From positions 62,001 to 126,000 of the forward strand of contig NZ_ATZA01000005.1 of NCBI RefSeq assembly GCF_000427965.1: DNA of 64,000 nucleotides, written 5' to 3'. Both the position numbers and the translations under genes were made by a program. Positions 40,481-59,999 of the stretch are shown in pieces (the first letter of the stretch is position 1; each line of letters begins with the position of its first letter). Source of the stretch: Olivibacter sitiensis DSM 17696 (GTDB taxonomy: Bacteria > Bacteroidota > Bacteroidia > Sphingobacteriales > Sphingobacteriaceae). Under the pieces are notes generated by a model. That model saw only the letters and a list, made by a program, of their open reading frames with translations. It did not search any database and was not told where the DNA came from.

Positions 40481-40499
40481 AAAAGTAAGTTTGACATTT
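40481..40499 (+). promoter_or_regulatory. Putative AraR operator in the GH43/GH43 divergent gap
   Basis: AAAAGT-AAGTTTG-ACATTT, one mismatch from the AAATGT-N7-ACATTT palindrome seen at three other places. It contains TTTGACATTT in the plus orientation, facing the tandem GH43 gene 60 nt downstream. The TTTG (40490-40493) can serve as a -33 element; a weak -7 (TATCTTGC, 40513-40520) lies 19 nt after it. Divergent control of the minus-strand GH43 operon is possible. Confidence 0.55.
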
Positions 40500-40558
40500 A
40501 TTTGTTTTTGATTATCTTGCCGTGTTTTTTACCAGTTATAAAGATACTAGAGAACCAT

Positions 40559-42490
40559 ATGAAAACGCGCTCTTTTCCATCCACGCCTCTTCTCTGCTTG
40601 GCACTATTCATCTGTTTTTTCCCTTTGGCCATGAAGGCCCAAAGCGTTCCTCCTAACGTGGCGGAAAAGGACTACACCGCTTACCTATTTGCCTATTTCA
40701 CGGGCAACCGCATAGAAGAAGAAGCCGTACGCTTTGCCATAAGCCCCGACGGTTATCGTTATTACGCTTTGAACAACAACGATCCGATCCTCGACTCCAG
40801 GACCATCAGCTCCACCGGTGGCGTGCGAGACCCACATATACTGCGCGGAGAGAACGGAAAAACGTTCTATATGGTACTGACCGATATGGTTTCTTCCAAA
40901 GGTTGGGATTCCAATAGGGCCATGGTACTGCTCAAATCAGATGACCTGATCAATTGGAAATCGAGCGTCATCAATATCCAGCAGAAATACCCCAATCAGG
41001 AAAACCTCCTACGGGTATGGGCGCCACAGACCATTTACGACAAAGAGGCAAGGAAATATATGGTGTACTGGTCCATGAAGCACGGAGATGGGCCAGACAT
41101 CATTTACTATGCTTATGCCAATGCAGACTTCAGCGATCTGGAAAGCGAGCCCAAACAATTGTTTTTCCCCAAGAACGGCAAATCCTGCATTGATGGCGAT
41201 ATCCTGTACAAGGACGGCCTGTACCACCTATTCTACAAGACCGAGGGGCACGGCAACGGTATCAAACATGCCACTACCGATAGGCTGACTTCAGGTCAAT
41301 GGAAAGAAGATGACGATTACAAACAACAAACCAATGACGCGGTAGAAGGCGCGGGCACGTTCAAACTCATCAACTCGGACACGTATATCCTCATGTATGA
41401 TGTTTATACCAAAGGCAAATACCAGTTTACCAAGAGCACTGATTTGGAACACTTTGAGGTGATAGACGAGGAAATCTCCATGGACTTTCATCCCAGGCAC
41501 GGCACCATTATTCCCATTACGCAGAAAGAACTGAAAACGCTCATCGACAAATGGGGAAAACCCAAAGCATACCCCGAAATTGCCTGGAAAAATAATCCCA
41601 TCCTAGAAGGCTATTATGCCGATCCGGAAATCCTGTATAGCCAGAAAACCAAGAAATACTATTTGTATCCAACCAGTGATGGGTTTGACGGTTGGAGTGG
41701 CTATTATTTCAAGACGTTCTCCTCCGACAATTTAAAAGACTGGAAAGATGAAGGTATCATCCTTGACCTAAAAAAGGACGTCCCATGGGCAGGCAGGCAC
41801 GCTTGGGCCCCTGCCATTGAGGAGAAGAAAATAAAAGGAAAATACAAGTATTTTTATTATTTCACAGGAGCACAGAAGGTAGGTATGGCCGTAGCCGACT
41901 CGCCCACTGGGCCGTTTACCGATATCGGCAAACCATTGGTAGACAAAAGACCCGAAGGCATCAAGGGAGGACAAGAGATAGATCCCGACGTGTTTACGGA
42001 TCCCAAATCCAAGAAAAGCTATCTCTATTGGGGCAATGGATACCTGGCCGTTGTCGAGCTGAATAACGATATGGTATCTATCAAATCTTCCAGCCCAAAG
42101 ATCATCACTCCGAGCGATGGTACCTTTCGCGAAGGGGCCTACGTATTCTACCGCAAGGGCATTTATTACTTTCTTTGGTCCGAGGACGATACGCGCAGCG
42201 AAAACTACAGGGTCAGGTACGGCACTTCCAAATCACCTTTGGGACCCATCGAAATTCCAAAGGACAACCTAATCCTAAGCAAAGTCCCAGAAAAGGGCAT
42301 CTACGGAACAGGGCATAACTCGGTGCTGCAGATGCCCAATAGCGACGAATGGTATATCGTGTACCACCGTTTCAATATTCCCAACGGCATCAAAATGGGG
42401 CAAGCGGCCGGTTTTCACCGCGAAGTATGCATGGACAAGCTGGAATTTAGGACAGATGGTAGCATTGTGCCTGTAGTACCTACAAATTAG
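40559..42490 (+). CDS. Tandem two-module GH43 protein, secreted
   Basis: 643 residues from ATG 40559; a longer reading to 40370 would overlap the divergent gene and is rejected. Signal peptide ends near MKAQS. Two complete GH43 propellers follow: module 1 (about 35-330) with Asp91 (GGVRDPHI), Asp212 (CIDGDI) and Glu263 (AVEGAG); module 2 (about 345-640) with Asp355 (GYYADPEI), Asp475 (EIDPDV) and Glu525 (FREGAY). Both triads are intact, so both modules could be active, perhaps on different linkages in arabinogalactan or arabinoxylan. It has an AraR-type box 60 nt upstream and converges with the GH127 gene (23 nt gap). Confidence 0.88.
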   Translation: MKTRSFPSTPLLCLALFICFFPLAMKAQSVPPNVAEKDYTAYLFAYFTGNRIEEEAVRFAISPDGYRYYALNNNDPILDSRTISSTGGVRDPHILRGENGKTFYMVLTDMVSSKGWDSNRAMVLLKSDDLINWKSSVINIQQKYPNQENLLRVWAPQTIYDKEARKYMVYWSMKHGDGPDIIYYAYANADFSDLESEPKQLFFPKNGKSCIDGDILYKDGLYHLFYKTEGHGNGIKHATTDRLTSGQWKEDDDYKQQTNDAVEGAGTFKLINSDTYILMYDVYTKGKYQFTKSTDLEHFEVIDEEISMDFHPRHGTIIPITQKELKTLIDKWGKPKAYPEIAWKNNPILEGYYADPEILYSQKTKKYYLYPTSDGFDGWSGYYFKTFSSDNLKDWKDEGIILDLKKDVPWAGRHAWAPAIEEKKIKGKYKYFYYFTGAQKVGMAVADSPTGPFTDIGKPLVDKRPEGIKGGQEIDPDVFTDPKSKKSYLYWGNGYLAVVELNNDMVSIKSSSPKIITPSDGTFREGAYVFYRKGIYYFLWSEDDTRSENYRVRYGTSKSPLGPIEIPKDNLILSKVPEKGIYGTGHNSVLQMPNSDEWYIVYHRFNIPNGIKMGQAAGFHREVCMDKLEFRTDGSIVPVVPTN

Positions 42491-42513
42491 GAGGCCTTTG
42501 GCAAATAGAGGGA

Positions 42514-44865
42514 TTATCTGAGTAATCGGATATAATACACCCCCCCAGCTACCGAGCCTTTTTGGGCGACAAATTTCAAGTTCAATACAGGATCAGAAGT
42601 CATGCCATCAGCCAGCTCATAGTCCACGTCATAAAAGCCGTCCTGCCCTTCAGCATGTGCCGTCACCCTTTCCAACAGCTTATCATTAACATATATATCG
42701 AAACTACGTCCTTTATCCCCTCCGAAATAGGTGATCCGTAGCGTTTGGGCATCTTTGCCTGGATTCTTCAGATTATAGCTGAACCATCCTCTTGCATGTC
42801 TCCAGTGCCTGTCTTGAAACACGCCAGACTCGGTACGCTCTCCTTTAAAGCCGTGATCGGATTCCGGCTGTTGCTCCCCAGGAGTTATTTTATCGATCGT
42901 GCGTGATTCCAGTTCCAGCATAGCCTGTTCCTCTTCTTGGAGTTTCAGCACGATACTGTCCAGGTTTTCTGGGCTGGTTTGCATCCAATACAACATATAA
43001 CGCGCGTCGTGAAGCTGAAAGAAAGGTTTCAACTCCAACGTTCCCTCGTGTTCCGGATAATATGCGTTTGTAATGTTATACGTCAAAGGTTCGCCTTCAA
43101 CTGGCCTTAAAGACTGGAGAATTTCCGCGGGCTCACCGACCAAAAGCGGGGCCTTATCAATGGGGTATAGGGGGCCATGGGCAATATGGCCCATCCTGCT
43201 GCCATCTGCAAACAGCCCATCCAAACCGCTCGAGTCTACCGCCGCCGCCAGTACAATGGGGCCGTGAACAAAAGAATACCAGGGCGATTGATCGGGCATT
43301 TGTTCCAAAGTCGTTTCCATGGGCAATGATACGCTAACAATATCTCCATTTTTCCATGTGCGTTCTACAGCGATATAGGAAGATACCACATCTTCGGTAG
43401 CCGCCACCCGTTTACCATTTACTTTGACCTGAAAACCGCTATCCTTTACCCAAGACGGCTTTCTGATATAAACGGTAAATAACCGTTTCCTCTCTAGATT
43501 TATTTTGATCTCGGTGGCTTCTTCAAATGGAAATTTAGTGTCTTGGGAAATCTTCGCCCCTTTTTCTTTCCAATTCAGCGTAGATGGAATGAACAGGTTG
43601 ACAAATAGATCCTCGCCATTATGCGCATAGACCAACTCGCCATATTTGCCGTGGTTTTCCAGACCCGAGCCTACGCAGCACCAAAAACCTTCGTCCACCC
43701 GAGAGTATACGCGGTAGTGCCTTGGGCGCATGGGCGTAAAATAAACGAAGCCTCCTTGCGGGTGCTGTGAGGAGAGGATGTGGTTGTACAATGTCCGTTC
43801 ATAGTAATCAATCAGTTCAGGTGATGGCTTGGTCAGGAACAATTGTTTCGACAGCTTCAGCATGTTGTACGAATTGCATGTCTCCGGTCCCTCCACCGAT
43901 TCCAGCATGGAAGAAAAATTATCCGAAGGATGGAAATGTTCGCGCACGCTGTTACCGCCTATCGATATCGTTCGCTTGTTGACTACCGTATTCCAGAAAA
44001 AACGGGCCGCTTTGGCCCATTCCTGCTCATCTGTCAACTGGGCAACACTGTAAAAGCCTATTACTTTTGGAATCTGGGTATTGGCATGTAACCCGTTGAG
44101 CTCATCGCGGCCTTCCAGCAAGGGATTCAAAATCCGGCGGTCTGAAAATCGCTGTGCCAATCTTACGTAGCGCTTATCTTTGGTGATACTGGCAACATAG
44201 GCAAAAGTCTCATTCATGCCCCCATGCTCCGAGATGAGCATTTCCTGCATCTGTTCATCGGTCAAATTATCCGTCAAGCCAAGGCACCATTCCGAAAGTT
44301 TTACCAACACATCCTTTGCCTGCTCGTTATGTGCCAACAGGTAGGCATCGCAAAGGCCAGCATACAATTTGTGGATGTTGTACCAGGGAACCCATTTTCC
44401 GTTGAGCGAAAAGGAACTGGCCTCTATCTTGCCTTCGGCAATCTCCTTCCAAAGCGCCTTTCCATCCGGTATTCCGCCAACATAGCCATTCCCATTGCTC
44501 TTTTGGCAATCTGCCAATTCGGAAATCATATATTCCAGCCTTTTCCCTATAGCGGAATCGGCTGTGGATGCATACATATTGGCAAGTGCCGACAGGTAAT
44601 GTCCGCCAATATGACCATCCAACCCGGTAGATTCCCAGTTGCCATAACTTTCTTTCCTTACAGCCAAATCCGCTTCTTTTCTGAATGGAGCCAACAGCCT
44701 GTCTGGATCCAATTTCATGATATAGGCCCTATCTGTTTCTTGTGCTTCAGAAAACGGGCTTTCTGTTAATCGCACATCTTCAAGCGAGAATGTCGAAAGC
44801 CTCTTGGTTTGCCCTATTATAACGAACGGGCTAATGGAAAGGAAAAGGAAAAGATACTTTTTCAT
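42514..44865 (-). CDS. GH127 beta-L-arabinofuranosidase (DUF1680), secreted
   Basis: 783 residues with a signal peptide (LFLSISPFVIIGQ). An (alpha/alpha)6 barrel of the DUF1680 type spans about 25-430, with beta-sandwiches after it. The zinc/cysteine site of the HypBA1 family is present: Glu328-x-Cys330 (EGPETC) and Cys396-Cys397 (GFWCCVGSG), where the second Cys of the pair is the nucleophile in HypBA1. It cleaves terminal beta-L-arabinofuranosyl units, found on plant hydroxyproline-rich glycoproteins and some pectins. Its promoter carries the best copy of the AraR box (44956-44980) and the araR gene lies upstream on the same strand. Confidence 0.9.
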   Translation of the reverse strand: MKKYLFLFLSISPFVIIGQTKRLSTFSLEDVRLTESPFSEAQETDRAYIMKLDPDRLLAPFRKEADLAVRKESYGNWESTGLDGHIGGHYLSALANMYASTADSAIGKRLEYMISELADCQKSNGNGYVGGIPDGKALWKEIAEGKIEASSFSLNGKWVPWYNIHKLYAGLCDAYLLAHNEQAKDVLVKLSEWCLGLTDNLTDEQMQEMLISEHGGMNETFAYVASITKDKRYVRLAQRFSDRRILNPLLEGRDELNGLHANTQIPKVIGFYSVAQLTDEQEWAKAARFFWNTVVNKRTISIGGNSVREHFHPSDNFSSMLESVEGPETCNSYNMLKLSKQLFLTKPSPELIDYYERTLYNHILSSQHPQGGFVYFTPMRPRHYRVYSRVDEGFWCCVGSGLENHGKYGELVYAHNGEDLFVNLFIPSTLNWKEKGAKISQDTKFPFEEATEIKINLERKRLFTVYIRKPSWVKDSGFQVKVNGKRVAATEDVVSSYIAVERTWKNGDIVSVSLPMETTLEQMPDQSPWYSFVHGPIVLAAAVDSSGLDGLFADGSRMGHIAHGPLYPIDKAPLLVGEPAEILQSLRPVEGEPLTYNITNAYYPEHEGTLELKPFFQLHDARYMLYWMQTSPENLDSIVLKLQEEEQAMLELESRTIDKITPGEQQPESDHGFKGERTESGVFQDRHWRHARGWFSYNLKNPGKDAQTLRITYFGGDKGRSFDIYVNDKLLERVTAHAEGQDGFYDVDYELADGMTSDPVLNLKFVAQKGSVAGGVYYIRLLR

Positions 44866-44937
44866 CTGCGGTCTTAATGGCTATACATTGGTTAACAACA
44901 TAGAAGATCGATACCATATGGAGGCAATCTCATGTTG

Positions 44938-44980
44938 CGAATGTATGCATATAATTATAAATGTCAAAAAAACATTTATA
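44938..44980 (-). promoter_or_regulatory. AraR operator and promoter of the GH127 gene
   Basis: Perfect dyad TATAAATGT-N7-ACATTTATA (44956-44980). Read on the minus strand it contains TTTG (44968-44965) followed, after 19 nt, by TACATTCG (44945-44938), a one-mismatch match to the Bacteroidota -7 element TAnnTTTG. The operator thus covers the -33 element, which fits repression. The core box begins 93 nt before the GH127 start codon, the same distance as at araB. Confidence 0.72.
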
Positions 44981-45001
44981 TAACCTGCGGTGAATTGCCC
45001 T

Positions 45002-45703: not shown

Positions 45704-45828
45704 AAAGTAAAAAGACAATTATATTAAAAAAAATTGCAGCGAACAAATCAATGACTTAATCTCTCTTAAAATTTGCCGACAAAACATGAGTAAACTAATT
45801 CCAGATAAATTTCCATTTCTAAAAAATT

Positions 45829-45847
45829 AAATGTTAATTTGACATTA
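45829..45847 (+). promoter_or_regulatory. Putative AraR operator upstream of araB
   Basis: AAATGT-TAATTTG-ACATTA, one mismatch from the palindrome AAATGT-N7-ACATTT. It contains TTTGACATT in the plus orientation and ends 93 nt before the araB start codon. A clear -7 element is not visible at the usual spacing. The box is in the middle of the 237-nt gap between araR and araB, so it can serve both. Confidence 0.68.
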
Positions 45848-45858
45848 ATTATAATGAA

Positions 45859-45894: not shown

Positions 45895-45940
45895 ACGTTT
45901 ATAATGAAAAAATAACCAAATAAAAAACCTCATTGACAGG

Positions 45941-47638
45941 ATGAACACAGCATTTGTTATAGGAGTAGATTACGGAAGTGACTCGGTACGTTCCGTCATC
46001 GTAAACGCGGGCTCCGGCGAAGAAGTGGCCGCGTCGGTATATTATTATCCGCGATGGAAAAGAGGGGATTTTTGCATTCCATCGGAAAGCCAATTCCGAC
46101 AACATCCCCTGGACTACATAGAAGGACTAGAATTCACCATCAAGGACTGCCTGCAGCAGGCCACCGAACTGGATATAGCCAAAAAAATCAAGGCTATTTC
46201 CATAGATACTACCGGCTCCACACCCATTGCCATTAACGAAGCAGGTGTACCACTAAGCCTCCTGGAAGATTTTTCGGACAACCCCAATGCCATGTTTGTG
46301 CTCTGGAAAGACCATACGGCCGTTCGGGAAGCAGAAGAAATCAACAGACATGCGAAAAACTTCAAAACCGATTACCTGAAATACGTCGGAGGCGTCTATT
46401 CGTCAGAATGGTTTTGGGCCAAATTGCTCCATGTATTCCGGGCTGATGAAAAGGTAAGGAACGCCACCTATACCTGGGTGGAACATTGCGACTATATTCC
46501 TTTCATGCTTTCTGGCGGCAAGCGCGCAAAAGACATAAAACGAGGTGTTTGTTCGGCGGGGCATAAATCCCTATGGGCAGCCGAATTTGGCGGTCTCCCT
46601 CCGAACGAATTTTTCAGCTCCTTAGATCCATTGCTAAATGGTTTTACAGATAGGCTATTTAGCACGACCTACACGGCCGATCAAGCAGCGGGTACCCTAT
46701 GCGAAGAATGGGCCGATACACTGGGCCTATCTACCGATGTAGTCATAGGCATAGGTGCCTTTGATTGCCATATGGGAGCCGTAGGAGGCCAGATAGAACC
46801 CTATTATCTTAGCAAAGTGATGGGTACTTCTACCTGTGATATGTTGGTGGCTCCTAAGGATGAAGTGGCCGATACACTGGTAAAGGGTATCTGTGGACAG
46901 GTCGATGGCTCTATCATTCCTGGCATGATTGGTATGGAGGCCGGGCAATCTGCTTTTGGAGACGCTTACGCTTGGCTAAAACAAGTACTACTCTGGCCTA
47001 GCAAGAACCTATTGGCCGGCCTAGCCAATGTAGATGAAGAGACCATCAATTACCTCATAAAAGAACTTGATGACCAATTGTTGCCGCAATTGAGCAAATT
47101 GGCGGAAGAACTCCCCGTAACGGAATCTTCCGAACTTGCCGTCGATTGGCTGAATGGTCGCCGAACGCCAGATGCGGACCAGACACTAAAGGGGGCCATA
47201 CAGGGATTGAATCTAGGAACCGACACGGTGAAGATATTTAGGGCTATTGTCGAATCCACCTGTTTTGGTGCGAAAAGCATCGTAGAACGTTTCATCGAGC
47301 AGGGAATTCCCGTGAAAGGACTTATCGGTCTCGGTGGCGTGGCCAAAAAATCGCCCTACATCATGCAGACCATGGCCGATATTATGGATATGCCCATTAA
47401 AATCCACAAAAGCGAACAGACCTGCGCCATCGGTGCGGCCATGTTTGCAGCCACTGCAGCAGGCATATATACCAAAGTGGAGGAAGCCATGGAAGCCATG
47501 GGACAAGGTTTTGAAAAAACCTATTATCCCAATGCGGAAAAAACGGCGCTCTATGCCAAACGCTACCTAAAGTACAAGGAATTTGGCAGTTTCCTGAGCA
47601 AAAAGGATATCAAGGAAGAACAGTTAAACCTAGCTTAA
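45941..47638 (+). CDS. araB: Ribulokinase AraB
   Basis: 565 residues, the family's usual length. Starts with AFVIGVDYGSDSVRSVIV (FGGY fold phosphate loop). It contains GIGAFDCHMGAVGG with the probable catalytic Asp, VMGTSTCDMLVAP and the C-terminal GLGGVAKKSPYIMQTMADI and EQTCAIGAAMFAA. It phosphorylates L-ribulose at C5 with ATP. First gene of araB-araD-araA; araD starts 3 nt after its stop. Transcription is expected to be AraR-controlled by the box at 45829. A close paralog lies at 1-1563 in a different regulatory context. Confidence 0.95.
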   Translation: MNTAFVIGVDYGSDSVRSVIVNAGSGEEVAASVYYYPRWKRGDFCIPSESQFRQHPLDYIEGLEFTIKDCLQQATELDIAKKIKAISIDTTGSTPIAINEAGVPLSLLEDFSDNPNAMFVLWKDHTAVREAEEINRHAKNFKTDYLKYVGGVYSSEWFWAKLLHVFRADEKVRNATYTWVEHCDYIPFMLSGGKRAKDIKRGVCSAGHKSLWAAEFGGLPPNEFFSSLDPLLNGFTDRLFSTTYTADQAAGTLCEEWADTLGLSTDVVIGIGAFDCHMGAVGGQIEPYYLSKVMGTSTCDMLVAPKDEVADTLVKGICGQVDGSIIPGMIGMEAGQSAFGDAYAWLKQVLLWPSKNLLAGLANVDEETINYLIKELDDQLLPQLSKLAEELPVTESSELAVDWLNGRRTPDADQTLKGAIQGLNLGTDTVKIFRAIVESTCFGAKSIVERFIEQGIPVKGLIGLGGVAKKSPYIMQTMADIMDMPIKIHKSEQTCAIGAAMFAATAAGIYTKVEEAMEAMGQGFEKTYYPNAEKTALYAKRYLKYKEFGSFLSKKDIKEEQLNLA

Positions 47639-47641
47639 ACC

Positions 47642-48337
47642 ATGTATAACCATATCAAAGAAGAAGCATACCATTGCAACATGCAACTGCCTAAACTGGG
47701 CCTAGTGCTTTTCACCTTTGGCAACGTCAGCGTAGCCGATGCCTCCAAAGGTGTCTTTGCCATCAAGCCCAGTGGCGTACCTTATGAAGAATTATCGCCC
47801 GAAAAAATGGTCGTCGTCGATTTCGAGGGACAAATAGTTGAGGGTCATCTACGGCCCTCTTCGGATACCCAGACCCACGCCGTACTGTACAAGCATTGGG
47901 AGGGAATAGGGGGAGTAACCCACACGCACTCTACCTATGCCACGGCATGGGCACAAAGCCAGCGTGCTATTCCCAATTACGGCACTACCCATGCCGACCA
48001 CCTTACAGCGGACATCCCATGTGCCCCGCCCATGAGCGACGATATGATACGTGGCAACTACGAATACGAGACCGGATTTCAGATTATCAACCACTTTAAG
48101 GAACAGGGCCTCGACTACAAGGAAGTGGAAATGATATTGGTGGGCAACCACGCCCCTTTTGCCTGGGGAAAAACGGGTATCAAATCGGTATATAATAGTG
48201 CCGTACTGGAACAGGTGGCGCAAATGGCACTCCTAACCGAGCAAATCAACCCAAACGCACCCAGGTTGAAAGACGCACTCATAAAGAAACACTACGAACG
48301 AAAACATGGCGGCAATGCCTATTATGGTCAAGAATAA
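47642..48337 (+). CDS. araD: L-ribulose-5-phosphate 4-epimerase AraD
   Basis: 231 residues, class II aldolase/epimerase fold. Zinc ligands are in THTHSTYATAWA (two His) and THADHLTADIPC (third His), with KPSGVPYEELSPEKMVVVD at the substrate phosphate site. It converts L-ribulose 5-phosphate to D-xylulose 5-phosphate, the entry to the pentose phosphate pathway. It follows araB by 3 nt and precedes araA by 21 nt, so araB-araD-araA is one operon. Length and motifs agree with standard AraD. Confidence 0.95.
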   Translation: MYNHIKEEAYHCNMQLPKLGLVLFTFGNVSVADASKGVFAIKPSGVPYEELSPEKMVVVDFEGQIVEGHLRPSSDTQTHAVLYKHWEGIGGVTHTHSTYATAWAQSQRAIPNYGTTHADHLTADIPCAPPMSDDMIRGNYEYETGFQIINHFKEQGLDYKEVEMILVGNHAPFAWGKTGIKSVYNSAVLEQVAQMALLTEQINPNAPRLKDALIKKHYERKHGGNAYYGQE

Positions 48338-48358
48338 ATAAATTTCACTTAAAATAGA

Positions 48359-49858
48359 ATGATAGATTTAAAACAACTGCAAGTCTGGTTCGTTACCGGA
48401 AGCCAAGACTTATATGGGGAAGAAACACTCCAGCAAGTAGCTGCACATGCCGAGGAAATAGCGCAATACCTTTCCACTCACGAAAGTACTCCTATACAAG
48501 TAACCTACAAGCCTATCGTAAAGAACAGCGAAGAAATATACGATACCATCGTCGCTGCCAATGCAGATGCCCATTGCATCGGTATTATCACCTGGATGCA
48601 TACCTTTTCACCGGCAAAAATGTGGATCAGGGGATTGAAGGCGCTGCAAAAGCCTTTGCTGCATCTCCATACGCAATACAACCGGGACATTCCTTGGTCT
48701 AGCATGGACATGGACTTCATGAACCTCAACCAAAGTGCACACGGCGACAGGGAGTTCGGCCATATCGTCACCAGGCTGAACATCAACCGAAAGGTGGTGA
48801 CCGGGCACTGGCAAGATGAAGAGGTATTGGAAAGGATCAACGTGTGGGCCAGGGCCGCGGCCGCTTGGCACGATTGGCAAGGTGCCAAATTTGTACGTTT
48901 TGGCGACAATATGCGTTACGTGGCCGTTACCGACGGGGACAAGGTAGAGGCCGAAACAAAATTCGGCTTCTCTGTCAATACCTACCCCATTGGCGATTTG
49001 GTGGCGGTCATCAATCAAACTAGCGAAGAGGAGATAAACACCTTATTAGCTGAATATGAAACCATCTATGAGTTGGCCGATGACGTGAAAGCCGGCGGCG
49101 CGCAACGCCATAGCCTGGTAGAGGCGGCCAAAATAGAAATAGGGTTGAGAAAGTTCCTTGAACAGGGCAACTTCAAGGGTTTTACCGATACTTTTGAAGA
49201 TTTGCATGGCATGGTACAGTTGCCAGGCTTAGCGGTACAAAGGCTCATGGCCGAAGGTTATGGTTTTGCGGGCGAAGGCGATTGGAAAACCCCAGCCTTG
49301 GTGAGGGCTTGTAAGGTAATGGGCGTCGGACTTCCCGGAACCACCGCTTTCATGGAAGACTATACCTACAACTTCGACCCAGACAATGCCCTGGTGCTGG
49401 GCTCGCACATGCTGGAAGTGGACGCCGCCCTGGCGAAGGGCAAAGCCAGGATAGAGGTGCACCCACTGGGCATTGGCGGAAAGGCAGACCCCGCACGGCT
49501 GGTATTCAACGGCATAAGCGGTCCTGCACTCAATGCCTCCTTGGTAGACCTTGGCACCCGATTTAGGCTTATCGTCAACAAGGTAGAGGGTGTGGAAGTA
49601 GAAAACGAACTGCCTAAATTGCCCGTAGCCAGAGTACTATGGAAACCATTGCCCGATATGAAAACCGGATGCAGCGCATGGATCTATGCCGGAGGCGCCC
49701 ACCATACCGCCTACAGCCTGAGCCTCACCCCCGAATACCTGGAGGACTTTGCCAAAATAGCCAATATCGAATACGTGGCGATAGACGAGAACACGAACCT
49801 TTCGACGTTCGAAAATGAGCTGAAATGGAGTGAATTGTATTATTTATTGAAAAAATAA
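48359..49858 (+). CDS. araA: L-arabinose isomerase AraA
   Basis: 499 residues, the normal length of AraA. Features include [14 protein letters not shown] at the N-terminus, [42 protein letters not shown] (metal Glu and His region) and [11 protein letters not shown] near the C-terminus with a catalytic His. It converts L-arabinose to L-ribulose with Mn2+ or similar metal. It is the last gene of araBDA; a stem-loop lies between it and the symporter gene 71 nt downstream. It is unrelated in sequence to the isomerase-like protein at 1575-3197. Confidence 0.96.
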
Positions 49859-51813: not shown

Positions 51814-52485
51814 TTACACTACTTGAGCCGCAGCAGCAGCCTTGGCATGGTCTGCCAAAAATTGCTCCAGGCCCTTGTCCGTAAGAGGGTGCTTCAACAG
51901 CCCTAGTATGGCAGATAAAGGCCCTGTCATAACATCTGCCCCAATCTTGGCACATTCGATGATATGCATGTTGTGCCTGATAGATGCCGCCAAAATCTGT
52001 GTTTCATAGCCATAGTTGTCGTATATGGTCCTGATGTCTTCAATCAGCGACAACCCATCCGTGGAAATATCATCCAAACGTCCCACAAATGGAGATACAT
52101 AGGTCGCACCGGCCTTGGCCGCCAGCAATGCTTGTCCAGCGGAGAACACCAAGGTGCAATTGGTACGGATGCCTTGCTCGCTGAAATAACGTATGGCCTT
52201 GATACCATCCTTTATCATGGGTACTTTCACCACGATGTTTTCATGGAGCTCAGCCAATACCAAGCCTTCCTTGACGATGTTCTCATAATCTGTGGCGATC
52301 ACTTCTGCACTCACATCGCCATCTACCAAATCGCAAATAGCTCGGTAGTGCTTTCTTACCGCTTCCTCCCCGCTAATACCTTCCTTGGCCATGAGGGAGG
52401 GATTGGTAGTTACGCCATCCAATACACCCAGATCGTTTGCTATGGCTATCTGTTCGAGATTTGCCGTGTCGATAAAAAATTTCAT
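51814..52485 (-). CDS. Small transaldolase / fructose-6-phosphate aldolase-like (TalC)
   Basis: 223 residues, one TIM barrel. [13 protein letters not shown] and [13 protein letters not shown] are the family's first strands, and the Schiff-base Lys is Lys87 in [17 protein letters not shown]-type phosphate binding is represented by [13 protein letters not shown]. It transfers or cleaves a C3 unit in the non-oxidative pentose phosphate pathway, fitting disposal of D-xylulose 5-phosphate from arabinose. Fsa and TalC cannot be told apart from sequence here. It is the last gene of the minus-strand PUL and overlaps the upstream HAD gene by 4 nt, directly before the terminator. Confidence 0.88.
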
Positions 52486-53180
52486 AAACTTCCCTTATTT
52501 ATTGTTTCGTCAAAATTTCCTTCCATGATTTCCCGAAGAATGGGATCTGTAAAGTCGGCCACAAATGCCTTCACATTGTCCAACCCGACAAAGTCATCTG
52601 GCCCATGCATGGTCATGACCACTACAGCATCCATGCCCGCCCTCTGGGCAGATAGCACGCCATTGGGATTATCCTCAAATACTAGGCATTCCGCTGGAGG
52701 CAATTGCAGCTTACTGGCGCATTGCAGATAGGTTTCTGGGCTAGGTTTGCTCTCCTTTACCTCATCTGCGCTTACTACCGCATCGATCATAGACCTTATA
52801 TGCAAACCATCCAGCACAAAGTCGATATTTTCCTGTATGGCCGCACTGCCGATCGCTATTTTTATCCGGTGATCCTGAAGAAAGAACAGAAAGTTGTACA
52901 GGCCATCCAGCAACTTCAGATGAGGTTCAAAATTTTTTCTATACCTCTCTTCCTTTTCTTTTTCCAGCGCTCTGATTTCCGAAGGGGAAAATCCCCTATC
53001 TGGCAGTAACCTCTTGAGTACTTCCACGTTCTTGCCGTACATTTCGCGGTTCAGGCGCTCAACGCCGACATCTACACCTAGACATTTATGCAAGGCCTCT
53101 TTCCATCCTTGGATGTGATATTGCATATCGTCTACCATGGTGCCATTCAGGTCAAACAGCACGGCTTTATACTTTTGCAT
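52482..53180 (-). CDS. HAD-superfamily hydrolase, beta-phosphoglucomutase-like
   Basis: 232 residues. Motif I is [12 protein letters not shown], with nucleophile Asp10; the second Asp of the usual DxDGT is Asn12. Motif II is AIGSAA, motif III has Lys in [12 protein letters not shown] and motif IV is VFEDNPNGV. The cap domain (about 17-85) is of the beta-PGM type. It may dephosphorylate a sugar phosphate or salvage side products of the arabinose route. Replacement of the acid/base Asp by Asn may lower activity or shift function. It starts 1 nt after the GH43 stop and overlaps talC by 4 nt. Confidence 0.82.
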
Positions 53181-53181
53181 A

Positions 53182-54153
53182 CTAATGTGAATTTATTCCT
53201 TCCGATGTCATGACGACGCGCTTTATGGAACCGTCCTTGTTATATTTCAGCTCATCGATACATACCGAACGGCGGTAGCTTCCTCCATCAGTATTGATGG
53301 CTCCGTTATGGTAGATGAACAGGTCCTTTCCCTTAAAGGTCACGATAGATTGGTGATTGGTATTGGAATTTCCGGCAATCTCATTGATGACACCTTTAAA
53401 TTCCCAAGGCCCATGTATACTCCTGCTCATAGCATAGGCTATCTTCTCTGGGAACTCGGTAGCATAGGACAGGTAGTACCATCCCTTATGCTTATGTATC
53501 CACGGCGCTTCGGTAAACTTTGGGATATTTATGACTTGAATATCTCCTGCCAGTTCGGTCATGTTATTAGCCAATTTGGCATAATAACAGGCCGTATTGC
53601 CCCAAAATAGATAAGCCTGCCCATCATCGTCAATAATGACCGAGGGGTCTATATCATCCCATGAGATGGCTGTCGCTCTCGTCATTTCGTTTGTTATCAA
53701 TGCTTTGCCAAGCGCGTCCTTAAATGGCCCTTCTGGCCTATCGGCCACAGCTACCCCGATGGCCTTGCCGCCATCTTTGTGTTCGGTAGCGACGTACCAA
53801 TAGAACTTGCCATCCCGTTCTATTACCTGCGAAGCCCAGGCATCGCCCTTGGACCAAGAAAAATCCTTTGTGCTCAAAGGAACGGGATGTTCCGTCCATG
53901 TTTTGAGATCGGTCGTGGAGAAGACCAACCATTCATGCATTTCATAAAAGTGCTTGCTTTTTGGTGCCTCATCATGGCCGGCATAAACGTACAATTTCTC
54001 CCCTACCACCAAGCCCGCAGGGTCCGCCGTGTACTTATGAGTGATAATGGGGTTGCCTTTAGCCATAAAGGTCGTATCCTGTGCATTCGCAAAGTCCGCT
54101 TGGGTATGCAGTATAGCCAAAAGGGACAATTGGATTAGCGCTCTCATGTTCAT
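53182..54153 (-). CDS. GH43-family glycosidase, secreted
   Basis: 323 residues with a signal peptide (LSLLAILHTQADFANAQ). One GH43 propeller with all three acids: Asp in KYTADPAGLV (base), Asp in WDDIDPSVI (modulator) and Glu in KFTEAPWIH (acid). The sequence resembles exo-acting alpha-L-arabinofuranosidase or beta-xylosidase members of GH43. It starts 3 nt after the aldose epimerase stop and 1 nt before the HAD gene. It probably trims arabino-oligosaccharides in the periplasm. The exact linkage is not readable. Confidence 0.87.
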   Translation of the reverse strand: MNMRALIQLSLLAILHTQADFANAQDTTFMAKGNPIITHKYTADPAGLVVGEKLYVYAGHDEAPKSKHFYEMHEWLVFSTTDLKTWTEHPVPLSTKDFSWSKGDAWASQVIERDGKFYWYVATEHKDGGKAIGVAVADRPEGPFKDALGKALITNEMTRATAISWDDIDPSVIIDDDGQAYLFWGNTACYYAKLANNMTELAGDIQVINIPKFTEAPWIHKHKGWYYLSYATEFPEKIAYAMSRSIHGPWEFKGVINEIAGNSNTNHQSIVTFKGKDLFIYHNGAINTDGGSYRRSVCIDELKYNKDGSIKRVVMTSEGINSH

Positions 54154-54156
54154 TGT

Positions 54157-55317
54157 CTATTTTACCGTAAAGTGATAGGAAGTTTTCGTTCTGTATTTTT
54201 CTCCCGCCTTCAGCACGGTACTCGGAAATTCGGGCCTGTTGGGGGAATCTGGAAAATGTTGGGTCTCCAAACAAAGAGCCGTGCGATAATCGTAATCCTT
54301 TCCGCCCTTTCCATGATGATCACCGCCTTTCATAAAATTGCCCGAATAGAACTGTACACCTGGCTGATCGGTATAGACTTCCATGAAAATTCCGGTCTCT
54401 GCGCTGTACAGGGAAGCGATCTTTCCATAGCCTTCTTTCTTGTTCAGGACATAGTTATGGTCGTATCCTCCACCCAATTTCAGTTGCTCCTCTTCATTTC
54501 CTATACGCTCACCCACCTTGGTCGCGTTCTTGAAATCAAAAGCCGTACCCTCTACAGGCATCAGTTCACCCGTTGGGATCAGCGTGCTGTCCACCGATGT
54601 TATCGCATCGGCATCGATCTGCAATTCATGCGATAGGATGTCTCCATTTCCCGCTCCATTGAGGTTAAAAAAGCTGTGGTTGGTAAGGTTTGCAACGGTG
54701 TTCTTGTCCGAAGTAGCCTCATAGGAGATCTCAATACTGTTATTGTCGGTCAATCTATAGGTGATTGTAGCCGTTAATGTACCTGGATATCCGGCTTCGC
54801 CGTCAACAGAAATGTAAGTAAGTTTCACCGTTTGACTATCGACTTGCTGTGCATCGAATACTTTAGTATGGAACCCATCCTTTCCGCCATGCAAGCTATT
54901 GCTGCCGTCATTTTGCTGCAACTGATAGGTTTGTCCATCCAATGAAAAAGCACCATCCTTGATCCTATTGCCATAGCGTCCTATGGTACTACCGTAGAAG
55001 GTGGTCGGATTTTTCAGGTATTCGTTTATATTATCGTGACCTAGTACCACGTCAGTGAGCTGGCCATTTTTGTCGGGAACCAACAGTTGTACTAAGCGAG
55101 CACCAAAATTGGTAATAGCCGCACTCACGCCATCCTTGTTTTTCAGATAGTAAATTCCAATTTGCTTTCCTTCATGTTCTTGATTGAAGTTACCAAGTTT
55201 AAAATCCACCGAATCCGCCTTGTCTAGCTCGGCAGATCCCTGTTTTCCCGCGGGGCTGCCACACGCTGCGACTCCTACAACAAGAAGACCAGCAGTCAAT
55301 TTTCCCAAGTTCATCAT
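54157..55317 (-). CDS. galM: Aldose 1-epimerase, lipoprotein
   Basis: 386 residues. The lipobox VAAC gives a lipid at Cys19, so it is anchored in the periplasm or outer membrane. GalM fold with the catalytic residues in NSLHGGKDGF (His), ANLTNHSFFNL (His) and ALCLETQHFPDSPNRP (Glu). It interconverts sugar anomers. Together with GH43/GH51 enzymes it would equilibrate anomers of L-arabinose released outside the cytoplasm so that uptake is fast. It is between two GH43 genes in the minus-strand unit (29 nt after the first). Confidence 0.9.
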   Translation of the reverse strand: MMNLGKLTAGLLVVGVAACGSPAGKQGSAELDKADSVDFKLGNFNQEHEGKQIGIYYLKNKDGVSAAITNFGARLVQLLVPDKNGQLTDVVLGHDNINEYLKNPTTFYGSTIGRYGNRIKDGAFSLDGQTYQLQQNDGSNSLHGGKDGFHTKVFDAQQVDSQTVKLTYISVDGEAGYPGTLTATITYRLTDNNSIEISYEATSDKNTVANLTNHSFFNLNGAGNGDILSHELQIDADAITSVDSTLIPTGELMPVEGTAFDFKNATKVGERIGNEEEQLKLGGGYDHNYVLNKKEGYGKIASLYSAETGIFMEVYTDQPGVQFYSGNFMKGGDHHGKGGKDYDYRTALCLETQHFPDSPNRPEFPSTVLKAGEKYRTKTSYHFTVK

Positions 55318-55345
55318 ATAAGTTTTAATTTATCAGCAATATTAA

Positions 55346-56353
55346 TCAATTAATTTCTGGCCAGCCACTTTTATTCCATGATAACTCGCTCAACCGCAGC
55401 TTGGGCTTGCCGTTGTCATTGCCATCGTAGGCATGAAACAGGATATAGTCTACACCCTTTATGTTCACCACGGCATTGTGTCCAACACCGTGCCAACGCT
55501 CGTCACCCTGCAACAATAACTTGCCACCTCCCCTTGCCATATCCACCCCACGTTCGTCTACGTAAGGTCCTTCCGCGACCTTGGAACGCCCTACGATCAT
55601 CTTATAGGTGCTTTCCTTACCCTTGCAACAGTAATCGATGGATGCAAATAGATAAAAGTACCCTTCATGTCTATAAATAAACGGTGCTTCTATGGCATTG
55701 CCACCCGCATCTACCGGGTTGTTCTCTATGGCCAATGGGTTAGGCAAGGCCGGATCTTTCTTTCTACTGGCTATGGTTTTCAAAGGGTGCTTTAAGGTAT
55801 CGGCCACCGCTAAGGCATCTTGGCGAAGCTTTACTAATTGCAGGCCTCCCCAAAAAGATCCGAAAACCAAATAAGGGTTGCCCCCTTCGTCCAGCACCAT
55901 GTTTGGGTCTATGGCATTCCAATTAGTGACACCTGGAAACGACTGGATAATAAGCCCATGGTCTTCCCAATGAAAGTTGGGATCGTCCCTGTCCAAAGTA
56001 ATATTGGTGGCCAGTCCTATACAGGAGGTGTTTTTCCCAAAAGCCGATACCGAATAGAACAAATAGTACCTCCCTTGATAATAACTGATATCGGGAGCCC
56101 AGATATGCCCTTTGAAGCTCGGTATCTGCTCTTTGGCCCAAAGCGGTGGCTCGGAAAACACAGCAGGCTCGGCTTGCCAGTTCTTCAAATCATCGGAACG
56201 CCATACACTGATCCCGTTGCCGGTAGAAAAAAGGTAATATTTTCCATCCACCTCTTGGAGAACGGGGTCATGTACCACAATGTCTTGCTCCTGAGCAAAC
56301 GATGTGGTGCCAACGATAACAGCCAATAAACCAAAGACCAGTGCGCGCATCAT
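55346..56353 (-). CDS. GH43 arabinanase-like enzyme, secreted
   Basis: 335 residues with a signal peptide (VIVGTTSFAQ). Propeller with Asp in VVHDPVLQ (base), Asp in NAIDPNMV (modulator) and Glu in AIEAPFIY (acid). The blade patterns GHIWAPDISYYQGRYYLFYSVSAF and FASIDYCCKG are typical of alpha-1,5-arabinanase-type GH43 (subfamily 5-like). Short single-domain form, so periplasmic processing of arabinan oligosaccharides is likely. It starts directly where the upstream GH51 gene stops, so translation is tightly linked. Confidence 0.88.
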   Translation of the reverse strand: MMRALVFGLLAVIVGTTSFAQEQDIVVHDPVLQEVDGKYYLFSTGNGISVWRSDDLKNWQAEPAVFSEPPLWAKEQIPSFKGHIWAPDISYYQGRYYLFYSVSAFGKNTSCIGLATNITLDRDDPNFHWEDHGLIIQSFPGVTNWNAIDPNMVLDEGGNPYLVFGSFWGGLQLVKLRQDALAVADTLKHPLKTIASRKKDPALPNPLAIENNPVDAGGNAIEAPFIYRHEGYFYLFASIDYCCKGKESTYKMIVGRSKVAEGPYVDERGVDMARGGGKLLLQGDERWHGVGHNAVVNIKGVDYILFHAYDGNDNGKPKLRLSELSWNKSGWPEIN

Positions 56354-58342
56354 CTATCTTGCTTTGATTCGGTATACATGAAACGAATAGGGTTGCATAC
56401 CTATATCCTTTTGCAGGGCCGCTATGGCCATGTTCTGCTCTCGAGGGCTTACTTTCTTAGGCTCATCCAAGGTGTTGCCGACGTCCAGGTCATCGGCATG
56501 CAGTACCTGAACCGATACCGATTTTTGCCACTTGCCTCCTTTTCCCAAATCAAGCTTGATGTGTTGTTCTTTATTGGAGTGATTGACTACCTTAATGATC
56601 AGCTCTTTCGCTTTGCTATCCCACATGGCAGAAGCATATAGGCTATCCTTGCCTACCAGTGGTGCGCCATCTTTCGTGAGTGGCACTATCTTATCGCCCT
56701 TGTTGGTCGAGTACAATTGCTGCACATAATAGTTTGGTGTGCCATAGGAACGGAGATTATCTACCCATATGAGATCTGGGCTCCACTGCCAGCCATCGAC
56801 ATGGGCAAAAAGCGGTGCATAGGAGGCCATGGCCACCACATCCGCATTGCGATCTATACCCGTGAGAAATGCGGCTTCTGCCACCGCAGCACGCCAAGTG
56901 TTCTTGTTACCATTGCTGGCAATCTTATCGGTATGTGCGGCATATTCCCCCGCAAATATCTTGCTCCCTTGGCGATCGTAGTGGTCATAGCGGGCCGCGC
57001 TTTTCAAAAACCATTCCGGATTACGGTAAAAATGTTCGTCGATGACATCGATTTTCATGGACCTCAACTGCTTGTCCAAAAATTCGAAGCGCTCCCCGTC
57101 GGGATCAGTACCCGAGCTAGCAATGATCTGGATATCGGGATATTTCGTTTTGATGGCCTTCTGAAAAATGGCCAAGCGTTCGATGTACTGCGGCCCCCAA
57201 TTTTCGTTCCCCACGCCCAGCATCTTGAGATGAAAGGGTTCGGGATGGCCCATTTCGGCCCTTAGCTTACCCCAAGCGGTAGAAAGGTCGCCATTGGCAA
57301 ATTCGATCAGGTCCAATGCGTCCTGCACATATTCGTCCAAATCTTCCAAAGGCACCAATTCGGCCGTATTGAACTGACAGGCCATCCCGCAGTTGAGGAT
57401 GGGCAATGGCTGTGCACCGATATCCTCGGCCAACTGGAAATATTCGAAGAAACCCAGTCCGAAACTCTGAAAATAGTCGGGTGTCAGCTTATGCTTAAAC
57501 TCGGTATTCCACCGATTGATGATCAGCTGACGGTCTTCTACGGGGCCTACGGTCTTTTTCCACTGAAAGCGATTGGCCAAGTCGCGCCCTTCTACGATAC
57601 AGCCGCCAGGAAAGCGTATAAACTCAGGCTTTAAGTCAGCCAAGAGCTGCACCATATCTGCCCGCAAACCTCCCGGCCTATTCTTCCAGGTATCTTCGGG
57701 AAACAAGGAAATCATATCCATATCTACTTTTCCCTTGCCTACTATCCATAATCGAAAATGCCCTTTTGCTTCTGTGGCGGTAGCCGTCAAACTGGCATTG
57801 ATTTTTTGCCACTGCCCTGCGGTAGCACCAATCGGGACTTCCTGCGTACCTATTACCCTACCTGTGGTATCGAGCAATTCCAGCGTTAGTTTAATGTCTG
57901 TACCGTCTGTGCGATAGAAAGACGAAAAATCGTACCTCAGCCCCTTCTTGATACCCATGCCCCGAAAACCTTCGTTCTCCAAACCTACCTTGTTCGCTTC
58001 GGCATTTCCGGTATATACACTGATATATCGGGGATTTCGCTCGTATTGCTTCCCGCTCCTGTTGACCACCAGCACATCGCCTTCGGCCACGCCTTTTCCC
58101 AGTTTTTTCCATCCCATCAGGGGCTCGGTAAATTCAAAGGAACGGTTCTTTACTAGCTCGGCATATATGCCACCATCGGCTCCCATATTGATATCCTCAA
58201 AAAATACGCCCCAAAGCTTGTCGGAAACATCCGCCTTTGCGTTTGCCAAGTCTACCTTGAGTGTTTTTACTTCCTGGGCCGTGCCCATAGATACGAGCGA
58301 GATGAGTCCAAGTATACTGCATTTTATGTGTTTTGCAATCAT
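56354..58342 (-). CDS. GH51 alpha-L-arabinofuranosidase, long form, secreted
   Basis: 662 residues with a signal peptide (LISLVSMGTAQ). Domain order: short N-terminal strand region, CBM4-like insertion (about 70-215), TIM barrel (about 220-500), C-terminal beta domain. Acid/base Glu380 (GVGNENWG) and nucleophile Glu436 (VIDEHFYR). The MGADGGIYAELVKNRSFEF region marks the plant/actinobacterial-type long GH51 class. It removes terminal alpha-L-arabinofuranosyl residues. Second of two GH51 genes in tandem, 18 nt after the first; they differ strongly in length and sequence, so they are not a recent duplication. Confidence 0.92.
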   Translation of the reverse strand: MIAKHIKCSILGLISLVSMGTAQEVKTLKVDLANAKADVSDKLWGVFFEDINMGADGGIYAELVKNRSFEFTEPLMGWKKLGKGVAEGDVLVVNRSGKQYERNPRYISVYTGNAEANKVGLENEGFRGMGIKKGLRYDFSSFYRTDGTDIKLTLELLDTTGRVIGTQEVPIGATAGQWQKINASLTATATEAKGHFRLWIVGKGKVDMDMISLFPEDTWKNRPGGLRADMVQLLADLKPEFIRFPGGCIVEGRDLANRFQWKKTVGPVEDRQLIINRWNTEFKHKLTPDYFQSFGLGFFEYFQLAEDIGAQPLPILNCGMACQFNTAELVPLEDLDEYVQDALDLIEFANGDLSTAWGKLRAEMGHPEPFHLKMLGVGNENWGPQYIERLAIFQKAIKTKYPDIQIIASSGTDPDGERFEFLDKQLRSMKIDVIDEHFYRNPEWFLKSAARYDHYDRQGSKIFAGEYAAHTDKIASNGNKNTWRAAVAEAAFLTGIDRNADVVAMASYAPLFAHVDGWQWSPDLIWVDNLRSYGTPNYYVQQLYSTNKGDKIVPLTKDGAPLVGKDSLYASAMWDSKAKELIIKVVNHSNKEQHIKLDLGKGGKWQKSVSVQVLHADDLDVGNTLDEPKKVSPREQNMAIAALQKDIGMQPYSFHVYRIKAR

Positions 58343-58360
58343 GATATAAAATCTAAACCA

Positions 58361-59905
58361 TTAATTCAATTCTAGCACCACTACGGAAAAAGGGGGTAAG
58401 GTAAGACTTAGCTGTCCACTGTTTACCTCCAGATCTTTTAGGATCGATGGTTGAATCAGGTCGGGTTTGTCAAAAGAATTGTAGTCCCTCAAGTTATCCG
58501 AGCGGAGAATCCGCGCCTGTGCCAATTTAAGGTCTTTTCTTCCCAAATCGATATCGACTTTATTGGACTTGGTATCGTCTATGTTTACCAAAGATATATG
58601 AAGCTTGCCTTCCTTATCCAAAGAGGCCGAAGAGGATACGGCAGGTAGCTTTTCCTCCCCGTAGACAAAATCGACCGATTCGATCTTTACCGGAATTAGC
58701 TTGGCATCCTGATGTACCTTGTACATCTCCATGACATGGTAAGTTGGTGTCAATAGCATCCTGTCCTTTTCCGTCAAGATGACGGCTTGCAAAACGTTGA
58801 CCGTTTGGGCCAGGTTGGCCATGCGCACGCGCTCAGCATGGTTGTTGAATACGTTGAGGGTGACACCGGCAATCATGGCATCGCGCATGGTATTCTGCTG
58901 ATAAAGAAACCCGGGATTGGTTCCTTCCTCCACTTCATACCATCCTCCCCACTCGTCCACCACCAGGGCTATTCGCTTCTGCGGATCGTATTTATCCATA
59001 ATAGCACTGTGCTTGGCCACCAGCTCTTCCATACGCCAGGCCGATTTCATAGTCTTGAAATACTCTTCATCGGAATATTTGGTGGCCGAACCTTTCTTGT
59101 TCCATTGCACGTTGGCATAGTGGTGCAAGGCTACGCCCGACACCAAGTTCTTGGGAATTTTCTTCATCAAGGTTTCCGTCCAGTTGTAGTCGTCCACATT
59201 CGCCCCTGAAGCTATGCGGAAAAGTCCACCCGAGTTATCCCAATCGGCCATGAACGTAGCATACTTGCGGTACAGGTCGGCATAGTACTCAGGCAGCATG
59301 TTACCCCCGCAGCCCCAAGCTTCGTTGCCCACTCCCCAGAATTTCACCTTCCAGGGTTTGTCCCGTCCATTTTCCCTGCGGAGATCGGACATGGGGCTCT
59401 TGCCATCAAAATTGACGTATTGTACCCAGTCTGCCAGTTCCTGTACCTCACCGCTCCCGATATTGCCGGCCAGATAGGGCTCGGTACCCAATAGCTCGCA
59501 CATGTTCAGAAAGTCGTGCGTACCAAAACTGTTGTCCTCGGTGACGCCGCCCCACCAGTTGTTGACGATGCTAGGCCGCTCGGCCTTGGGGCCTATGCCA
59601 TCTTTCCAGTGGTAAGTATCGGCAAAACAGCCTCCCGGCCATCTCAAGTTGGGGATATTTAATTTTTTCAGGGCCTCTATGACGTCATTCCTTACGCCGT
59701 TGGTATGGGCTACGGTTTTGTTATCTTCCCCCACATAGATGCCATCGTAAATACAACGACCCAGGTGCTCGGCAAAATGGCCATAAATGTGCTTGCTGAT
59801 GATAACCTCAGCGCTATCTACACCTAACGTGACCTTGGACTGGCCCAGAGAGATACCCCAACAAAAGAAGAATTGAAAGAGTAGAAACAATGATAATTTA
59901 TGCAT
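58361..59905 (-). CDS. GH51 alpha-L-arabinofuranosidase, short form, secreted
   Basis: 514 residues with a signal peptide (QFFFCWGISLGQ). TIM barrel from about 35 with LRWPGGCFADTYHWKDGIGP, acid/base Glu195 (GVGNEAWGCGG) and nucleophile Glu318 (LVVDEWGGWYE), then a C-terminal beta-sandwich. This is the classical bacterial AbfA length. First gene downstream of the internal AraR box (59979-59999), in a minus-strand unit GH51-GH51-GH43-galM-GH43-HAD-talC. It likely removes alpha-1,2/1,3 or 1,5-linked arabinose from arabinan oligosaccharides. Confidence 0.93.
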   Translation of the reverse strand: MHKLSLFLLFQFFFCWGISLGQSKVTLGVDSAEVIISKHIYGHFAEHLGRCIYDGIYVGEDNKTVAHTNGVRNDVIEALKKLNIPNLRWPGGCFADTYHWKDGIGPKAERPSIVNNWWGGVTEDNSFGTHDFLNMCELLGTEPYLAGNIGSGEVQELADWVQYVNFDGKSPMSDLRRENGRDKPWKVKFWGVGNEAWGCGGNMLPEYYADLYRKYATFMADWDNSGGLFRIASGANVDDYNWTETLMKKIPKNLVSGVALHHYANVQWNKKGSATKYSDEEYFKTMKSAWRMEELVAKHSAIMDKYDPQKRIALVVDEWGGWYEVEEGTNPGFLYQQNTMRDAMIAGVTLNVFNNHAERVRMANLAQTVNVLQAVILTEKDRMLLTPTYHVMEMYKVHQDAKLIPVKIESVDFVYGEEKLPAVSSSASLDKEGKLHISLVNIDDTKSNKVDIDLGRKDLKLAQARILRSDNLRDYNSFDKPDLIQPSILKDLEVNSGQLSLTLPPFSVVVLELN

Positions 59906-59923
59906 AATTGGATAATTTTAACT

Positions 59924-59959
59924 TGGCCACAAAATCCTCGTACAAGGACATCGTGGCCA
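59924..59959 (-). repeat. Nested inverted repeat in the GH51 leader
   Basis: TGGCCAC (59924-59930) and GTGGCCA (59953-59959) are perfect complements with an inner pair TCCT/AGGA. It lies between the proposed -7 element and the GH51 start, so the 5' leader could fold. The start of transcription would be close to the right arm; the effect is unknown. Confidence 0.4.
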
Positions 59960-59999
59960 TAAAGATAAGGTAAAAAATTAAATGTCAAAAAAACATTTA
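59960..59999 (-). promoter_or_regulatory. AraR operator and internal promoter of the GH51 unit
   Basis: TAAATGT-CAAAAAA-ACATTTA (59979-59999); the core equals that of the GH127 box. Read on the minus strand it gives TTTG (59989-59986) and, after 18 nt, TATCTTTA (59967-59960), close to TAnnTTTG. The box lies 15 nt beyond the stop of the GH43 lipoprotein gene, so the arabinan PUL has a second, internal promoter here. Confidence 0.68.

Follow-up and report, generated by a model that had tools for sequence, protein, structure and literature searches.

Gene content of the locus

The window analysed here is a 64,000-nucleotide stretch of the 5.05-Mb genome of Olivibacter sitiensis DSM 17696 (G000, C45:62001-126000), and coordinates are given in the window frame unless a contig or locus label precedes them. 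It contains a cluster of genes for L-arabinose catabolism and for glycosidases, together with copies of a 19-bp palindrome, AAATGT-N7-ACATTT, and araR, which encodes a Nudix-type regulator. The seven palindromic sites of the cluster, two of which lie past the window end, front six units: a GH97-GH43-GH2 run, a divergent GH43 pair, GH127, araR/araBDA, a GH51 run and a susC-susD-arabinanase unit. We infer the operon extents of these units from strand and spacing.

Table 1 Genes and predicted regulator-binding sites of the locus, in window coordinates
Feature	Position	Strand	Family matches, site sequence or remarks
GH2 beta-galactosidase-like, GH97-GH43-GH2 run	32952-36194	-	PF02836, PF02929
GH43 glycosidase after GH97	36248-37246	-	PF04616
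GH97 glycosidase	37323-39266	-	PF10566; start GTG 39305 in open reading frame (ORF) list, ATG 39266 likelier
Possible operator 5' of GH97-GH43-GH2 run	39325-39343		Exact palindrome
GH43 glycosidase	39376-40377	-	PF04616
Probable operator, divergent gap GH43 (-) / two-domain GH43 (+)	40481-40499		1 mismatch (left half AAAAGT)
Two-domain GH43 glycosidase	40559-42490	+	PF04616, two stretches
GH127 beta-L-arabinofuranosidase-like	42514-44865	-	PF07944
Predicted operator 5' of GH127	44959-44977		AAATGTCAAAAAAACATTT; exact palindrome
araR, Nudix + NrtR/AraR winged-helix regulator, 238 aa	45002-45718	-	PF21906, PF00293, PF19368
Predicted operator, araR/araB divergent gap	45829-45847		AAATGTTAATTTGACATTA; 1 mismatch (right half ACATTA)
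araB, ribulokinase	45941-47638	+	NF003154 and TIGR01234 above cut-off
araD, L-ribulose-5-phosphate 4-epimerase	47642-48337	+	NF006047 above cut-off
araA, L-arabinose isomerase	48359-49858	+	NF002795 above cut-off
Sodium:solute symporter, probable sugar importer	49930-51627	+	PF00474, TIGR00813
Rest of GH51 run: second GH51, GH43, aldose 1-epimerase, GH43, HAD-type hydrolase, transaldolase	51814-58342	-	
GH51 arabinofuranosidase, first gene after 59980 site	58361-59905	-	PF06964
Predicted operator 5' of GH51 run	59980-59998		19-mer identical to 44959; exact
GH43 endo-arabinanase-like, last gene of susCD unit	60015-61529	-	PF04616
susD-like	61633-63234	-	PF07980
susC-like	63234-64000, on to 66299 (L016:5234-8299)	-	
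Predicted tandem operator pair 5' of susC, past window end	66369 and 66394 (C45:128369/128394)		Each 1 mismatch

Domain matches from Pfam and NCBIfam bear out the gene assignments of the preliminary description, which had named a two-domain GH43, GH127, araB, GH51 and a Nudix-type araR. The best NCBIfam match of the endo-arabinanase-like gene is to NF049888 (BT0367 arabinanase) and falls below the cut-off of that model. A window ORF at 63234-63965 that has no Pfam match encodes the C-terminal portion of the susC-like protein, whose gene crosses the window end. In the GH51 run the transaldolase, HAD-type hydrolase and aldose 1-epimerase are packed together with two GH51 and two GH43 genes, and pentose-phosphate flux may therefore be co-controlled with arabinan debranching. 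A second polysaccharide locus at 8539-16028 has its own hybrid two-component regulator (HTCS, 11859-16028), no other HTCS being seen in the window; it adjoins a susC-like gene different from that of the arabinan cluster.

Palindromic sites in the window and in the genome

With at most one mismatch, the palindrome occurs at five places in the window (39325, 40481, 44959, 45829 and 59980), compared with a mean of 0.29, and none of 100 dinucleotide shuffles reached five; three of the copies are exact, versus 0.03 expected. Spacers of N6 and N8, used as controls, gave no match in the window, and at up to three mismatches the palindrome shows no enrichment there (42 places versus 46.9 expected), which is the chance level. 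Four copies had been described previously, at 40481, 44959, 45829 and 59980, and none elsewhere. All four are present, though 44959 and 59980 alone are exact, while the supposed absence of others does not hold, since an exact fifth copy lies at 39325 and the tandem pair at 66369 and 66394 lies just outside the window. Similarly, the gene-oriented core TTTGACATT(T/A) is found at the four sites first described but not, as read from the sequence, at 39325 or in the tandem pair.

All seven sites of the cluster (7/7) are intergenic, and provided that the GH97 gene starts at ATG 39266, they lie 58 to 110 bp from the start codons that they precede. The sites at 39325 and 40481 are positioned 58-59 bp ahead of glycosidase start codons and the remaining sites 69-110 bp ahead, with the members of the tandem pair, separated by a step of 25 bp, 69 and 94 bp from the start of susC. 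The distance from 39325 to GH97 is 58 bp with ATG 39266 and 19 bp with GTG 39305. An origin as chance AT-rich palindromes is ruled out by the shuffles, the spacing controls and the contrast between coding and intergenic positions.

Scanned over the whole genome at up to one mismatch, the palindrome was found at 41 places, versus 21 for the backwards control, and its three exact copies are confined to the window. The 34 one-mismatch places outside the cluster have their centres mostly in ORFs (28/34, including L007 and L014, which straddle an ORF end), with the other 6/34 in gaps. At the six gap matches 12 neighbouring genes were scanned: Pfam identifies none of them as an arabinose gene, and 2/12 have no Pfam match; the neighbours include phosphoesterases and metal-transport-related, cNMP-binding, relaxase, HipA N-terminal, thioredoxin and acetyltransferase proteins. 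Neither this palindrome scan at up to one mismatch, of the genome-wide kind that the preliminary description had called for, nor the sequence model described below gave a convincing regulon member elsewhere in the genome. Overlap of the sites with the TTTG/TAnnTTTG promoter consensus was also considered: two of the five TTTG-bearing sites have a 5-of-6 minus-7 match, against a background of 15/367 TTTG with 5 or 6 of 6, and these numbers are too few to use.

The AraR protein

The window AraR is composed of an N-terminal Nudix domain and a C-terminal NrtR/AraR winged helix, with PF00293, PF21906 and PF19368 all matched above cut-off. Its closest solved relative, by phmmer, is the Bacteroides thetaiotaomicron protein BtAraR (5bs6; 217 bits, E 1.9e-63), followed among solved structures by SoNrtR at 92 bits, and the domain matches and this nearest structure uphold the earlier placing of a Nudix-type araR among the sites. 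The best named matches, among those listed, are from Sphingobacterium species. The ten L-arabinose contacts given for BtAraR in the sections of PMC4666351 drawn on here (Y5, R34, F36, G47, G48, F49, R86, V92, F129 and H131) are all identical in the window protein (10/10). The Nudix signature REUXEE, impaired in BtAraR (PMC4666351), reads RILKKL, such that all three catalytic glutamates are replaced, as in BtAraR. The araBDA genes adjoin araR, so that the regulator gene is clustered with arabinose catabolic genes.

An operator motif from other genomes

We collected 166 distinct AraR-like loci, our own genome included, of which 62 adjoin araB. In other genomes, too, the palindrome lies next to araR on its araB-facing side, and 61 of the 62 araB-linked loci yielded an operator candidate. 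A weight matrix was built from 45 distinct araB-side operators, all from other genomes. In the window it ranks 45829 first (29.7 bits), 44959 second (26.8), 59980 third (26.1) and 40481 fourth (15.2), which are the four sites originally described, and it gives the susC tandem pair 21.1 and 17.0 bits. The maxima of 12 first-order random windows range from 3.3 to 17.6 bits, and 40481 exceeds 11 of the 12. A sequence-only model, built from 39 of the 45 operators, detects 45829, 44959 and 59980 in the window; a genome-wide search with it, not exhaustive because scoring covered 150 of the 2007 first-look candidates, lists 45829 at rank 1 (E 0.0018), 44959 at rank 2 (E 0.13) and 59980 at rank 4 (E 0.16).

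The tandem arrangement recurs in relatives. At L023 and L025, pairs with the same 25-bp step lie 5' of orthologous susC genes, which share 58% and 56% identity and are transcribed divergently from araR, and a 25-bp pair also lies ahead of a susC-like gene (38% identity) at L039.

Predicted control by AraR

By analogy with B. thetaiotaomicron, it is very probable that the palindromes are AraR operators, with AraR repressing araBDA, araR, the susCD-arabinanase unit and the glycosidase units, and with L-arabinose releasing it. Binding, repression and arabinose release would carry over from that organism, in which apo-AraR binds such sites and L-arabinose abolishes binding in vitro (PMC4666351), and in which AraR is a repressor in vivo (PMC5061871). 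The link between palindrome and AraR, proposed initially from position, is strengthened by the full set of arabinose contacts, by the layout that the sites share with the BtAraR crystal operator, GTGT-N7-ACAC (PMC4666351), by the ranking obtained with the motif of other genomes, and by the content of the units (araBDA, GH43, GH51, GH2/GH97 and SusCD), which fits the Bacteroides regulon as described in the portion of PMC4666351 used. Without L-arabinose, an AraR dimer on each site would block six promoter regions, namely those of araR/araBDA-symporter, GH127, the GH43 pair, the GH51 run, GH97-GH43-GH2 and, via the tandem pair, susC-susD-arabinanase. Intracellular L-arabinose is predicted to bind the Nudix domain and turn the DNA-binding domains out of register, releasing the DNA, such that the proteins for arabinan capture, debranching, uptake and catabolism would be made together. 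The predicted AraR regulon of the locus adds a new, well-supported case to a control system that is already known, and it is larger than first noted.

Several observations weigh against this reading. Three of the six BtAraR DNA contacts (K179, R180, N181, K184, K204 and R205), which PMC4666351 calls absolutely conserved among the orthologues that it treats, are exchanged in the window AraR (K179R, K184R and R205K, hence 3/6 identical); K184R and R205K are usual in araB-linked relatives. A 14.2-bit match at 29309, inside a susC-like ORF, takes matrix rank 5, close below 40481, and 39325 falls to rank 7 at 7.9 bits, within noise. The best score in 192,965 bp of other stretches of the same genome is 18.3 bits (L056, where an FGE-sulfatase-domain gene starts). 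The sequence model detects neither 40481 nor 39325, in the window or genome-wide, and past rank 1 its genome-wide list is weak (44959, 59980 and 66394 at E 0.13 to 0.32), being interleaved with three matches away from arabinose genes: C14, between a CvfB-like gene and polyphosphate kinase; C31, beside a DUF808 gene, the sole neighbour scanned; and C3, between two succinate-dehydrogenase-type genes. Finally, an AraR paralogue of 61% identity elsewhere in the genome could compete for the sites. Because random-window maxima extend to 17.6 bits and the own-genome best to 18.3, 45829, 44959, 59980 and 66394 stand clear of noise, whereas scores by themselves do not separate 66369 and 40481 from it, and the case for 39325 depends on its exact palindrome and its location.

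These scores bear most directly on the possibility, which we consider doubtful but the most credible of the alternatives, that only 45829, 44959, 59980 and the susC tandem pair are true operators and that 40481 and 39325 are functionless near-palindromes. The score of 39325 lies inside the range of the random-window maxima, that of 40481 is near the in-gene match at 29309, and both sites are missed by the sequence model within the limits of its search. Yet 39325 is one of three exact 12/12 matches in 5.05 Mb, both sites are intergenic at distances from glycosidase starts that are near those of the other sites, and GH2, GH97 and GH43 genes belong to the published AraR regulon (PMC4666351, in the part describing it).

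It is unlikely that the sites are shared with, or mainly used by, the paralogue, which is encoded at C49:19694-20377. This protein resembles the window AraR closely (79% positives), has Lys179, as does BtAraR, and the arabinose motif gives 18.0 to a site in its own gap; but its gene adjoins galK and not ara genes, its pocket carries Ile in place of F36 and Thr in place of V92 (Thr92 being common in araB-linked relatives as well), and galK-linked proteins of Pedobacter face another operator, TTGT-N7-ACAA. Binding by a Crp-like or LacI-type regulator is highly improbable: a LacI-family gene is present at 31669-32736, and the Bacteroides Crp-like motif, as published, is likewise an ATGT...ACAT palindrome, but its consensus spacer is six bases, a spacing that gave no match in the window, and the palindrome recurs beside araR in other genomes. 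The Crp-like motif itself was found in the window at chance level (4 versus 3.3 expected).

AraR-like paralogues and residue 179

The C49 paralogue (L051:9679-10377), with its F36I and V92T exchanges, is encoded divergently from galactokinase and is a candidate galactose-responsive regulator. An AraR-like gene likewise adjoins galK in six named Pedobacter loci (L155, L158, L160, L165, L174 and L180), and at L155 it is divergent from a galT-galK-symporter run. The AraR-like proteins of L155, L158, L160, L165 and L174 (at about position 4920) face a palindrome, TTAATTGTC-N5-GACAATTAA, that is unlike the arabinose operator, with one ATGT half at L160 and L174. Among 16 galK-linked loci are 13 that have Thr179 and a scored site, the site being TTGT/TTGT in eight and TTGT/ATGT in five. 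The Gly180 proteins of the galK-linked loci L180 (site at -86) and L248 (-89 from the regulator start) face TAGT in place of TTGT; in BtAraR, Arg180 intercalates at the TG step of the operator (PMC4666351). A galactose-sensing AraR-like branch is plausible because L-arabinose and D-galactose share the same ring pattern at C2-C4.

Residue 179 was compared with the outer operator base at 80 loci, where G is found in 50 of 56 Lys179 loci and in none of 24 non-Lys loci. The sole Lys179 galK locus, that of the C49 paralogue, is counted with a G from an imperfect half, and four loci stand outside the count: L178, L180 and L248, at which no operator was scored, and L195, whose site, lacking G, was missed by the script pattern. 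The six Lys179 loci without G all adjoin araB (L121, L127, L142, L145, L161 and L182), though at L121 a second operator candidate does carry it. On the tree, residue and base show only three independent changes, mostly agreeing, with a median p of 0.25. A further 27 loci include nine with Lys179 beside araB, of which eight have G in the best araB-side candidate and one, L273, has no candidate. The Arg179 locus L267 runs counter to the rule, having G/G ahead of araR, and L257, likewise with Arg179, has only a doubtful A/A candidate. The Asp179 branch, mostly Mucilaginibacter (L128, L134, L143, L164, L179, L181 and L184), is encoded among varied neighbours, and neither this group nor the Asn179 proteins in other contexts yielded a common palindrome.

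The link between residue 179 and the outer base is therefore suggestive, not significant, and serves as a lead. The case is in our judgement evenly balanced for a broader proposal, in which the AraR-type Nudix repressors of Sphingobacteriales and Chitinophagales diversified into branches specific for different sugars, one of them a galactose branch encoded divergently from galT-galK-symporter, and in which recognition-helix residues 179 and 180 mainly set DNA specificity. Lys179 would then go with an outer G, Thr, Asn or Arg mostly with A or T, and loss of Arg180 with a change of TTGT to TAGT, the window AraR being one re-tuned member.

Comparison with known systems and significance

The locus shares with the BT0354 AraR regulon (PMC4666351) an NrtR/Nudix regulator whose Nudix box is impaired and whose ten arabinose contacts are the same, a semi-palindromic operator with a 7-base spacer, tandem operators placed close together, and units for arabinose catabolism, GH43, GH51, GH2/GH97 and SusCD. 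It differs in the outer operator base, which is A at most half-sites here and G in the BtAraR crystal operator, and in the arrangement of araR, which is divergent from araBDA here but lies inside araMPRDAB in B. thetaiotaomicron (PMC4666351). The tandem pair fronts susC here, whereas in Bacteroides it fronts araM, with 3 bp between sites in most genomes (PMC4666351). A GH127 unit is present here but is not named in the part of PMC4666351 describing the Bacteroides regulon, and the host lies outside Bacteroides/Prevotella. NrtR, the NAD-responsive Nudix repressor of Shewanella, has the same two-domain architecture but is a much weaker match than BtAraR (92 versus 217 bits). Bacillus AraR, as far as the source consulted goes, senses arabinose by name and role but belongs to a different protein family, GntR.

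Arabinan control in B. thetaiotaomicron involves the HTCS BT0366, AraR and BT4338 (PMC5061871). As in that system, AraR is predicted here to repress arabinose genes and part of the arabinan genes, with relief by L-arabinose; the difference from the control set out in the part of PMC5061871 used is that no HTCS was found among the genes scanned at 36-66 kb, and the arabinan genes here may therefore answer to AraR alone.

AraR-like proteins (E up to 1e-55, paralogues counted) turned up in 63 of the 395 genomes sampled from across the phylum. PMC4666351, in the sections available, reports AraR for 17 species of Bacteroides and 15 of Prevotella, so the family seems to be more widespread than originally described. 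In a literature search judged largely from search results, we recognised no work on Sphingobacterium AraR or on a Nudix galactose regulator. As identified by sequence comparison, the AraR-like proteins outside Bacteroides/Prevotella, the putative galK-linked branch included, appear to be new but secondary to the regulon itself. With the predicted regulon, a repressor system of solved structure that was described in gut Bacteroides/Prevotella reaches a Sphingobacterium-like genome. A single cytoplasmic sensor of arabinose may govern a whole arabinan locus there without a local HTCS, and the relatives provide a natural series for how one regulator family shifts its sugar and DNA specificity.

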